Position numbers and translations under genes: made by a program
IMG/VR virus record: IMGVR_UViG_3300020125_000164
Coordinates: 1-23,440 of that record
DNA: 23,440 bases
Source: a virus
Direction: 5' to 3' (one strand)
The notes under the pieces: model-generated
What the model was told of the DNA's origin: nothing
The model's input: the letters and a program-made list of their open reading frames with translations, nothing else
Databases searched by the model: none
In this document: piece after piece, positions 7,100-23,440 of the stretch
How positions within the stretch are numbered: the stretch's first letter is position 1
Layout of the letters: each line of letters starts with the position of its first letter

Positions 7100-7549
7100 A
7101 TGGTCAAAGCGTCACTACTCCGCGGCCTCCACTACCGCAGGGTCGTCTATAGGCCCGGATTCGGGGTGTGTCGGTGCGAGGTCTGCTCGGCGGCATATGA
7201 AGCCTCCCGCGAGACGGCGGAGCCGCCGGATATGGGCGCGGCCGTCGCCGGATGCCTCTACCGCAATAGAGAGCAGGCTTTCGCGGATCAGTGGGCGCAC
7301 GAGCATCGCATCGGTGACTTGGCGCAGGAGCTAATGGTGCGCCCACCGAAGAAAGGGGAGCGCCGATCGCCCTTCGGATTTGATGGCGTCCTCGCCTTCT
7401 GGCTCACCTACCGTGAGCGAGTCATTCTGGCGACGGTTGTCCAGTGGCTCGGGTCGAATGTCGGTTTCGATTTCCTGCGGCAAGCTCTGGCGCGGTGCGG
7501 CTGCGAGATCGTAGAGAAGGATGCTGCTGCGAAACGGAGGAGCGCATGA
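7100..7549 (+). CDS. hypothetical protein with CRCEVC motif (149 aa)
   Basis: ATG 7100, two bases after the previous stop. The N-terminal part carries VCRCEVCSAAY and a later GCLY; the C-terminal part has FWLTYRERVILATVVQWLG and a terminal RCGCEIVEK. The clustered cysteines at both ends may form a zinc site, but the spacing does not match a family I know. The stop overlaps the start of the UmuD-prime-like gene (ATGA). Function unknown. Confidence 0.72.
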   Translation: MVKASLLRGLHYRRVVYRPGFGVCRCEVCSAAYEASRETAEPPDMGAAVAGCLYRNREQAFADQWAHEHRIGDLAQELMVRPPKKGERRSPFGFDGVLAFWLTYRERVILATVVQWLGSNVGFDFLRQALARCGCEIVEKDAAAKRRSA

Positions 7550-7941
7550 CCACCCCGCGCCCACCGATTGAGCCCGTGACCGGCGCCACCGAGCGTCTCG
7601 CCGTGCCGGGCCATCTCCTGTCCGGCTCAACAGCGGAGCATTACGTCCTCCGCGTAGTGGGCGAGTCGATGGTCGAGGAGGGGATCTACGACGGCGACTA
7701 CGTCGTCGTGCTCCGCGGTGAGGAGATCGTTCCCGGTGACCTGGTCGTCTGCCTGGTGGGCGACGATGCCACCATGAAGCGCTACTGGCCGGAGGGCGAC
7801 GTGATCCGGTTGCAGCCCGCTAACTCAGCGATGCATCCGATCTACGTCAAGCCGGAGGACTTTGAGGTCCGCGGCGTGGTCGTCGGGCTGATGCGCAAGT
7901 ATGCGCGAGGATTACCGCTATCATCCGAGAGGAAGCCCTAA
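7546..7941 (+). CDS. UmuD-prime-like S24 family protein, no HTH
   Basis: 131 aa. Clear LexA/UmuD-type S24 fold: VVGESMVEEGIYDGDYVVV with Ser41, DDATMKRYW with Lys78 (37 residues apart, as in LexA and UmuD), then IRLQPANSAMHPI. It has no DNA-binding domain, and the place where an Ala-Gly or Cys-Gly cleavage bond should sit (about residues 6-8) is Pro-Pro-Ile. It therefore resembles the processed form UmuD-prime, like HumD of phage P1, rather than a repressor. Likely role: modulating error-prone polymerase or the SOS response in the host cytosol. Start ATG overlaps the upstream stop, with GGAGGAGCGC before it. Confidence 0.88.
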   Translation: MTTPRPPIEPVTGATERLAVPGHLLSGSTAEHYVLRVVGESMVEEGIYDGDYVVVLRGEEIVPGDLVVCLVGDDATMKRYWPEGDVIRLQPANSAMHPIYVKPEDFEVRGVVVGLMRKYARGLPLSSERKP

Positions 7942-8562: not shown

Positions 8563-9854
8563 AAGCGTCAGCGCTGCTCACGCCAGAGGAGAAGAGGCTC
8601 CGTGACCTCGCCTGCAAGATCGCCGGTGATCTGTTCACCGGCGGGAGCGGTGATCTGGCGGACCGACTTGTTCTCGTGCGTGATGACTCGGGCCGCGACC
8701 TCGGCGGATGGGCGCTCGGTCCCGCAGTTGAGATAATCTTCCGGCGGCTGCGGGGTGAGGCCGTGAGCGGGCCGACGCGGGAGTACTGCGCGGAGCTCGC
8801 CGCCTTCCTGCGCGACTGCGCGGTGGAAGACGAGCGGTGCGAGTACCCACAGAGTGCCGGACGGTTCCGCGCTGCTGCCGATCTCCTGGACCGCTACCCC
8901 CTGCCCGCGGGCGAGGGGGAGCGGGCGGACCCGCTCACCACTACAGCACGCGGCCTTGCGGCCCATGAGCTGGTTTGTGTCCAGGTGCATAACGCCGCGA
9001 TTGAGGCAGCAGCCCTAATCGTCTGCCCTGAACCGCACGTTGAAGAGGAAGTGGAGTGCTCCGAGGTGGCGCGGCGCATTAGAGGTCTCAAGCGGCTATA
9101 TCGCAGCGCCGAGATTGAGGCGATGTTCGCGCGGCGGGAGACCCTTGCTGATATGCGGCTACGCTCGGCTGCGGAAGATCGTGAATTGGAAGCTCTGCGG
9201 GCGCGGATCGGGCAGCTACCGACCGCGCGCAGTCCCGCGGATCAGGAGGCCGCAGACGAGATCCGCCGCGCCGTCGCCCTCCTCCGGGCGCCCGCGGCAG
9301 AGCCGGCGCAGGATGGGGAGCGGGAGGCGCTGGCCACCTGGCTGAGGGGGCTGGGTGAGCAGCCGCAGTTCCGCCGCGCCGCCCACCTCATGCTCCATCC
9401 CGCAGCGGGGGTAGATCGTAAGGCCGTGCTAAGCGTCTTGACAGAAGAGCGCCGCACTGCTGCGGCCATCGAGTTCGCGACCCCGCATGGCATGGAAGCC
9501 GGCGCGGTTAGGGTCGCCGAAGCCGCTAGCGTCCAGCATAGGCGACTCATGGATCTGGCATTCGACGAGGCGTGCGATCGCGTCCGCGCCCTCCCGGAGA
9601 CCGAATCTGGCGGCGGTTGGCACTACCTCCCGGACCTGCCGCCTGAGCCATCTGAAGGTGAGGAGGTCTGGCTCGATATCTGGCGGTACTACCCACATAA
9701 GCCGGAGCTGCGCCCAGTCCGCGATGAGGTACCATGGCGCGGCGACGCAATCGATGGCCCGCAATTCCTCTTTCGCCACGGCTTCGCGACCTACTGTTGG
9801 CGACGGGCACAGCATGAGCCGCCGCCGATACCGGCACGAGAAGGGCAAGAATGA
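8559..9854 (+). CDS. large hypothetical protein with C-terminal DUF551-like domain (431 aa)
   Basis: Start ATG overlaps the preceding stop (ATGA). Most of the protein is helical and charged, with AVALLRAPAAEPAQDGE and EYCAELAAFLRDCAVE. The last 80 residues, from W354 (GGWHYLPDLPPEPSEGEEVW ... FATYCWRRAQHEPPP), resemble DUF551. That is a short phage-associated domain beginning W..v.d.lP and ending in a Trp-rich WxPLPxPP-like tail. The match is by eye and moderate. Function unknown. Confidence 0.75.
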   Translation: MKASALLTPEEKRLRDLACKIAGDLFTGGSGDLADRLVLVRDDSGRDLGGWALGPAVEIIFRRLRGEAVSGPTREYCAELAAFLRDCAVEDERCEYPQSAGRFRAAADLLDRYPLPAGEGERADPLTTTARGLAAHELVCVQVHNAAIEAAALIVCPEPHVEEEVECSEVARRIRGLKRLYRSAEIEAMFARRETLADMRLRSAAEDRELEALRARIGQLPTARSPADQEAADEIRRAVALLRAPAAEPAQDGEREALATWLRGLGEQPQFRRAAHLMLHPAAGVDRKAVLSVLTEERRTAAAIEFATPHGMEAGAVRVAEAASVQHRRLMDLAFDEACDRVRALPETESGGGWHYLPDLPPEPSEGEEVWLDIWRYYPHKPELRPVRDEVPWRGDAIDGPQFLFRHGFATYCWRRAQHEPPPIPAREGQE

Positions 9855-22638: not shown

Positions 22639-22716
22639 TGGTCGGGGCGGCACGATTTGAACGTGCGGCCTCTCGGTCCCAGGCCGAGAGCTCTATCCAG
22701 GCTGAGCTACGCCCCG
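22639..22716 (-). tRNA. tRNA-Pro (anticodon UGG) with C33
   Basis: 78 nt including encoded CCA. All arms pair: acceptor CGGGGCG/CGCCCCG with C1-G72 and A73 (proline identity), D-stem GCUC/GAGC, T-arm GCACG-UUCAAAU-CGUGC. The anticodon stem CUCGG/CCGAG encloses loop CCUGGGA, which sets the anticodon as UGG but puts C at position 33, where U is nearly universal. Confidence 0.85.
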
Positions 22717-22719
22717 AAA

Positions 22720-22794
22720 TGGAGCCGGCTACGAGAGTCGAACTCGCTTCGGCCACCTTACAAGGATGGCGCCCCTCCGCAGGGCCTCGCCGGC
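22720..22794 (-). tRNA. tRNA-Thr (anticodon UGU), divergent D-arm
   Basis: 75 nt with encoded CCA and U73. Acceptor GCCGGCG/AGCCGGC (the seventh pair is a G-A mismatch). Anticodon stem CCAUC/GGUGG holds loop CUUGUAA (anticodon UGU). T-arm GCGAG-UUCGACU-CUCGU. The D-region lacks the usual U8 and A14, so it is partly degenerate. Confidence 0.8.
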
Positions 22795-22797
22795 TTG

Positions 22798-22875
22798 TGG
22801 TTGCGGCGGCCCGATTCGAACGGGCGACCTGTGCGTTATGAGCGCACCGAGCTTCCATGACTGCTCTACGCCGCG
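22798..22875 (-). tRNA. initiator tRNA-fMet (anticodon CAU)
   Basis: 78 nt with encoded CCA. Initiator hallmarks: C1-A72 mismatch, A11-U24 in the D-stem GAGC/GCUC, anticodon loop CUCAUAA flanked by three G-C pairs (GCG/CGC instead of the usual GGG/CCC), and A73. T-arm GCCCG-UUCGAAU-CGGGC. First of three tRNAs on the minus strand. Confidence 0.88.
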
Positions 22876-22881
22876 GAGGAG

Positions 22882-22887
22882 AGTATA
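22882..22887 (-). promoter_or_regulatory. possible -10 of the tRNA cluster
   Basis: TATACT on the minus strand ends 7 bases before the 5' end of tRNA-fMet, so transcription could begin at the mature tRNA end. No convincing -35 at 16-18 bases. The P7 palindrome is centred about 46 bases upstream of that start. Confidence 0.4.
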
Positions 22888-22898
22888 GCGCATCGCCG

Positions 22899-22927
22899 TT
22901 GATTCCGGGACGGCACCATGCTATGGT
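22899..22927 (+). promoter_or_regulatory. promoter P7 with palindromic operator
   Basis: TTGATT (22899-22904), 17-base spacer, TATGGT (22922-22927); palindrome 22915-22927. It drives the RNA ligase with a leader of about 42 bases. It sits between the divergent ligase gene and tRNA cluster. Confidence 0.82.
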
Positions 22928-22975: not shown

Positions 22976-23440
22976 ATGGCTGATGACTTCTCTTACGATC
23001 TCCTGCCGGGTTTGGTGGACGAAGGTCTGCTCACGATGCGCGAGCACCCGGAAGAGCCGGGATTGCAGATCTACAACTACACGGCTCGCTGCGCCTATGA
23101 AGATGCCTGGACACCAGAGACGCTCGCCTGCCGCGGTCTGATCCTGGATTCTTACGGGAACATCGTCGCGCGGCCGTTCCGTAAGTTCTTCAATCTCTCC
23201 CAGCACCTCCCCGAGTCCTCACCGCTCCCGCGCTTACCGATCGGCGATCCGTTCCTCGCCTACGAGAAGCTAGATGGCTCGCTCGGCATCAGCTACCGCA
23301 TGGGCTATGAGGTGCGCATCGCAACCCGTGGCTCGTTCGATAGCGAGCAGGCGCGATGGGCGACCGCCTGGTGGCGGCGCTTCGGTTCCGAGATCCCCGA
23401 CGGACAGACATGGCTTTTCGAGATCATCTATCCGGGTAAC
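22976..23440 (+). CDS. T4 Rnl1-like RNA ligase, truncated by the window edge
   Basis: 155 codons visible, with the frame open to the window edge. ATG follows CGGAGGA by 5 bases. The nucleotidyltransferase core is clear: CRGLILDSYGNIVARPFRKF, the adenylation motif YEKLDGS with K98, and the downstream motif TWLFEIIYPGN. ATP-dependent RNA ligases of this type rejoin broken RNA; in T4, with a kinase/phosphatase, they repair tRNA cut by the anticodon nuclease PrrC. Its place next to phage tRNAs fits tRNA repair, but no kinase partner is in view. Confidence 0.9.
   Translation, partial: MADDFSYDLLPGLVDEGLLTMREHPEEPGLQIYNYTARCAYEDAWTPETLACRGLILDSYGNIVARPFRKFFNLSQHLPESSPLPRLPIGDPFLAYEKLDGSLGISYRMGYEVRIATRGSFDSEQARWATAWWRRFGSEIPDGQTWLFEIIYPGN

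Follow-up and report, generated by a model that had tools for sequence, protein, structure and literature searches.

The three G-C pairs of the initiator anticodon stem are a textbook determinant of translation initiation, and the middle one is read by A1339 of the 16S rRNA. The locus described here raises the question of why a phage should carry an initiator tRNA in which precisely this middle pair, 30-40, is reversed to C-G. The tRNA gene lies in a stretch of 23,440 bases (hereafter the window) taken from an IMG/VR virus record, in which phage-type genes encode a helicase, a methyltransferase, an HNH protein, a ParB-like protein, an S24 peptidase and an exonuclease. The minus-strand ORF at 2376-2666 in the same window encodes a very cysteine-rich product of 96 aa with a signal-peptide-like start. 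In the INPHARED phage collection, no DNA relatives of the window were found at megablast level, and none were found for the fMet tRNA alone.

Identity of the tRNA and its likeness to M1

The earlier note had taken the gene for an initiator tRNA, not an elongator Met or Ile2 tRNA, and had proposed a tRNA scan as a check. The scan agrees, since ARAGORN calls tRNA-Met(CAU) at exactly positions 22798-22875 on the minus strand; Rfam RF00005 scores this span at 54.3 bits (E = 2.3e-9; cut-off 29 bits), and all the determinants readable from the sequence bear out the initiator assignment. By direct reading in canonical numbering, the acceptor stem (CGCGGCG/CGCCGCA) opens with the mismatch C1xA72, continues with G2-C71, C3-G70 and four more pairs, and is followed by A73 and an encoded CCA; the D stem (GAGC/GCUC) contains A11-U24; and the anticodon arm is GUGCG-CUCAUAA-CGCAC, with G-C at 29-41, C-G at 30-40 and G-C at 31-39. 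Every stem is paired, and the cloverleaf is the predicted fold. C1xA72 and A11-U24 promote formylation, and C1xA72 disfavours EF-Tu. An elongator Met or Ile2 identity was rejected because the initiator determinants are present, a pseudogene because all stems are paired and CCA is encoded, and a chance tRNA-like sequence because of the Rfam score.

The phage tRNA shares with E. coli tRNAfMet (metZWV/metY) the CAU anticodon, the CUCAUAA loop, C1xA72, G2-C71, C3-G70, A11-U24, A73 and the encoded CCA; the formylation set (1x72, G2-C71, C3-G70, A11-U24) and the set of three G-C pairs (3GC) are summarised in PMC7949028. It differs in having C-G at 30-40, where G-C is normally invariant, in a D loop one base longer than usual, and in its setting, a phage-borne array that also includes Thr and Pro tRNAs. 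The G-C pairs 29-41 and 31-39 of the 3GC set are present and the third, 30-40, is not, so the molecule is classed as a tRNAfMet variant and not as a standard member. The earlier description of the stem as GCG/CGC in place of GGG/CCC was right in that a key initiation determinant is altered, but only the middle pair differs.

The change from G30-C40 to C30-G40 was engineered in E. coli tRNAfMet as ‘M1’ (PMC11497404), and the phage tRNA has the identical single change, C30-G40 in an otherwise initiator-type tRNA. M1 is lab-made and a poor initiator, whereas the phage molecule, known here from its sequence and classed on that basis, is a real, natural M1-type initiator tRNA whose change recurs in phages. 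In cryo-EM structures of M1, A1339 and G1338 of the 16S rRNA make weaker A-minor contacts, with 30-40 and 29-41, respectively; in vivo, translation is down about 20-fold; and GUG and UUG complexes are about 10-fold less stable, while CUG complexes lose no more, so that in M1 the discrimination against CUG disappears (PMC11497404).

These measurements bear on two readings of the phage change. One is an altered choice of start codons, in which relaxed P-site discrimination would allow weak or unusual phage starts, for example CUG, to be read. The same E. coli change does remove discrimination against CUG, but the effect comes from weaker GUG and UUG complexes and not from a stronger CUG complex, with the overall loss of initiation given above (PMC11497404); moreover, the neighbouring RNA ligase gene begins with ATG behind an unremarkable GGAGG Shine-Dalgarno sequence, and host tRNAfMet would remain present, and we consider this reading improbable. 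The suggestion in the earlier note that the variant might help at GTG or TTG starts is weak, being contrary to the nearest experiment, in which the identical swap destabilises those complexes and does no more than lift the additional penalty on CUG (PMC11497404). The second reading is a partial conversion to an elongator, by which the phage tRNA might decode internal AUG codons or act in both capacities. It draws on the identity of the M1 30-40 pair with that of elongator tRNAMet (PMC11497404), but the retention of C1xA72 and A11-U24 in the phage tRNA, with the same pattern in most of its relatives, makes it very improbable.

The tRNA array and the sister phage

The array runs on the minus strand in the order fMet, Thr(UGU), Pro(UGG), with CCA encoded in all three genes. 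The second gene, tRNA-Thr(UGU) (22720-22794, minus strand; ARAGORN), is atypical, with A8, a G7xA66 mismatch and a low Rfam score (36.2 bits), yet it is conserved in a sister phage; the third, tRNA-Pro(UGG), lies at 22639-22716 (minus strand; ARAGORN; Rfam 58.3 bits). By direct reading, a -10-like hexamer, TATACT (22882-22887, minus strand), ends 6 nt before nucleotide 1 of the initiator tRNA and has no clear -35; it is identical in the sister phage.

On the plus strand, a promoter-like TTGATT...TATGGT (22899-22927), with the palindrome ACCATGCTATGGT over its -10, faces the RNA ligase gene and is conserved in the sister contig. The near-palindrome occurs in seven exact copies in the window (at 319, 4384, 6116, 6187, 10992, 14057 and 22915), where 0.2 would be expected; six of the seven have TTGAC or TTGAT 16-17 nt upstream and overlap the -10 of promoter-like sites, and further copies (2 and 5, split between L400 and L316) are found in the sister contig. 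These sites look like a putative phage repressor operator regulon, and a candidate for its regulator is the S24/LexA-like protein encoded at 7444-7941.

The sister phage (IMGVR_UViG_3300020118_000164, 93 kb) encodes a helicase 99% identical at the protein level and shares with the window its tRNA-Thr and tRNA-Pro genes, the TATACT hexamer and the operator-promoter. Its fMet gene has been reduced by a deletion to about 17 nt of the 5' end, so the gene is accessory and was lost there. As the array and its promoter occur in this phage even though fMet is absent, the possibility that the window's tRNA is a host gene at a provirus edge was rejected. The gene that follows the operator-promoter in the sister phage is not the ligase, and no relative of the ligase was found in the sister phage record; a zinc-ribbon, transposase-like gene (L400, reverse strand, ~3130 onward) stands at the ligase's place behind the same operator-promoter. 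In this one comparison, the fMet gene and the ligase co-vary.

Distribution and recurrence of the C30-G40 pair

Viral contigs and 84,980 prokaryote species were searched for a pattern that combines the GCG/CGC stem with an initiator-type D arm, and 48 viral contigs matched it as against 11 prokaryote loci, one of them in Gluconacetobacter sacchari. At least eight of the 11 lie in proviruses or beside phage-type genes: four (Bradyrhizobium Tv2a-2 and Ai1a-2, Rhizorhabdus histidinilytica and Nocardia brasiliensis) have counterparts among IMG/VR contigs that carry the identical tRNA (L254, L113, L227 and L082, respectively), and four further loci have a gene for a portal protein (L204), Erf (L212) or an integrase (L209, L210) in the same stretch. 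At another prokaryote locus the 3' half of the tRNA is lost (L211), and two are on short or end-of-contig MAG pieces (L208, L213). An ordinary G30-C40 initiator is also present in eight of these 11 genomes.

Among native host genes, random samples of 397 Pseudomonadota and 148 Actinomycetota yielded no initiator with G40 beyond the two query proviruses. Each sample gave one other match: G343, which has U30, and G506, which was rejected as an initiator tRNA because its G31 faces U39 and its D arm is abnormal. The matching search for C40 was positive in 51/60 and 57/60 genomes of the two phyla, and open-stem searches in Patescibacteria and Chloroflexota found G30 in all initiators except the two query loci. 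Altogether, 267 of 267 native initiator genes sampled in the four phyla have G30. The earlier note had named a host gene sharing this stem as what would speak against anything phage-specific; such a gene was looked for, and none was present among the native genes sampled, which may not include those of this phage's host. On this evidence the swap is essentially restricted to phages and does not copy a host gene. The open-licence papers searched yielded no description of C30-G40 initiators in nature, and what seems to be new is a C30-G40 swap that occurs naturally, arises repeatedly and is all but limited to phages.

The extent to which phages respect the three pairs can be seen in a sample of viral initiators drawn without regard to the stem, which comprises 97 unique tRNAs among the matches listed, some of which may be host genes at provirus edges. 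In this listed set, 29-41 is A-U in 55, U-A in 21, G-C in 19 and other in 2, and 31-39 is G-C in 66, C-G in 23 and other in 8, while 30-40 is G-C in 93 (about 96%), C-G in 3 and A-C in 1. Phage initiators are therefore generally lax on 3GC yet hold 30-40, and the phage tRNA of the window is one of the few in which the most conserved pair of the set is broken. The difference between viruses and hosts at this pair (3/97 among the matches listed versus 0/267 host genes) has P = 0.018, and the initiator-type tRNAs read from 13 named phages all lack C30-G40. The most frequent phage-specific change in initiators is C31-G39 (P = 7e-15 for the same listed viral tRNAs against 0/267 sampled host genes), which alters nucleotide 39, 3' of the site cut by VapC toxins. 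A C31-G39 initiator-like gene also occurs in 2 of 200 Pseudomonadota genomes (L491, L492), and one viral contig carries two initiator-type tRNAs in tandem (L108:137-263).

The main rival to a function for the swap is relaxed constraint: the phage initiator would supplement host tRNAfMet, its stem would drift, and C30-G40 would be a tolerated outcome without a function of its own. The free variation of viral initiators at 29-41 and 31-39 speaks for it, as do the dispensability of the fMet gene, of which the sister phage deletion leaves only the 5' end, and the few viral initiator-type tRNAs that even have a U30xU40 mismatch (L257, L259, L260, L261, L263, L266). Drift, however, should touch 30-40 last, as the least variable of the three pairs. 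One replacement also predominates when the pair is altered: unique tRNAs with an altered 30-40 pair comprise C-G in 13 cases, U-A in 1, A-U in 1 and UxU in 3, so that C-G makes up 13 of the 15 Watson-Crick replacements, although a route through G-U to A-U needs no broken intermediate.

Nor do the other features of these tRNAs suggest neglect. The 42 unique viral C30-G40 tRNAs have a mismatch or weak pair at 1-72 in 41 cases, G2-C71 in 36, C3-G70 in 36 and A73 in 40, with a fully paired acceptor in 40; initiator features are kept as well as in G30-C40 viral tRNAs, and the molecules are therefore not decaying. A G30-C40 tRNA is the nearest neighbour of 21 of the 42, and on a tree built from the rest of the tRNA (~70 columns, rough) the 30-40 state changes at least 20 times, so that the swap recurs in many lineages. 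That the same costly pair has been reached again and again while everything else stayed intact speaks for selection, but the test is a crude one, and C-G is favoured in G+C-rich genomes. Relaxed constraint is doubtful as an account of the swap, if quite conceivable. At most C30-G40 loci no tRNA other than the initiator occurs in the contig stretch examined, which speaks against simple codon compensation.

A reserve initiator as a possible role

The reading that we prefer, unproven and held at rather less than even confidence, is that the phage tRNA is a reserve initiator, working when host tRNAfMet is cut by anticodon-loop nucleases. The phage tRNA would be transcribed, charged by MetRS and formylated like that of the host. 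By analogy with M1, it would be a weak competitor for the 30S P site as long as the pool of host tRNAfMet is full, but it may work when host tRNAfMet is scarce, as 3GC-mutant initiators function in E. coli strains with the host initiator genes (metZWV) deleted (PMC7949028). During infection the host initiator pool would be cut by anticodon-loop nucleases, for example VapC toxins, some of which cleave tRNAfMet between A38 and C39 (PMC4105405; PMC8522696). In the least supported step, the changed stem might escape or slow cleavage and the phage tRNA would take over phage initiation, in the spirit of the proposal that phage tRNAs evade anticodon nucleases through changes in the anticodon loop (PMC10264068). 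Like those tRNAs, the one described here is phage-borne and differs from the host tRNA in its anticodon arm; unlike them, it is an initiator and the change is in the stem. It differs from all sampled native host initiators, which may not include those of its own host, at 30-40, near the A38/C39 cut.

Several observations count against a reserve initiator. The CUCAUAA anticodon loop and the A38-C39 step are unchanged in the phage tRNA, and in E. coli initiation suffers from the swap. With G30-C40 kept in 93 of the 97 listed viral initiators and no named phage swapped, it would be a minority solution even among phages.

In the reserve-initiator proposal, the neighbouring ligase would mend other cut tRNAs. 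The gene, of the T4 Rnl1 type, is represented by its 5' part (22976-23440, plus strand), cut by the contig end; it is divergent from the tRNA array and starts 100 bp from the fMet gene. It was assigned by PHROG 562 (E 1.2e-33) and Pfam PF09511 RNA_lig_T4_1 (31.0 bits versus a cut-off of 28.3), and its translation, of which the C-terminal part is missing, contains EKLDGS, the KxDG nucleotidyl-transfer motif. An Rnl1-type ligase with this motif beside phage tRNA genes recalls the T4 tRNA repair module (Rnl1 and polynucleotide kinase), although no kinase/phosphatase is seen in the window. In three C30-G40 lineages (the window, L083 and L112/L236, with a distance of 73 bp in L236) an Rnl1-type ligase gene is found no more than about 1.1 kb from the initiator, whereas none was detected near 78 G30-C40 initiators (P = 0.053). 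This association speaks for the proposal, as does the absence of both genes from the sister phage, but its weakness, which leaves it only suggestive, and the truncation of the gene count against it; moreover, among 80 ligase-bearing viral loci examined, the initiators, where present, are without the swap. One viral contig with a related RNA ligase (L036) carries a tmRNA with an unusual tag peptide at 8610-8976.

Explanations other than those considered here take up the remaining probability. A broader form of the reserve-initiator reading, which we advance as a tentative and rather unlikely possibility, is that a second class of initiator, with 30-40 reversed, has arisen repeatedly in phages and is silent while the host initiator is plentiful but working once it is destroyed. 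If a reserve initiator of this kind exists, phage translation would start when that of the host cannot, and the arms race between phages and hosts over tRNAs would extend to the initiator, which phages of hosts with a tRNAfMet-cutting VapC reportedly avoid encoding in general (PMC10264068). The presence in many phages of a swap that is crippling in the laboratory provides natural test molecules for how much of the 3GC set is needed for initiation, and when.
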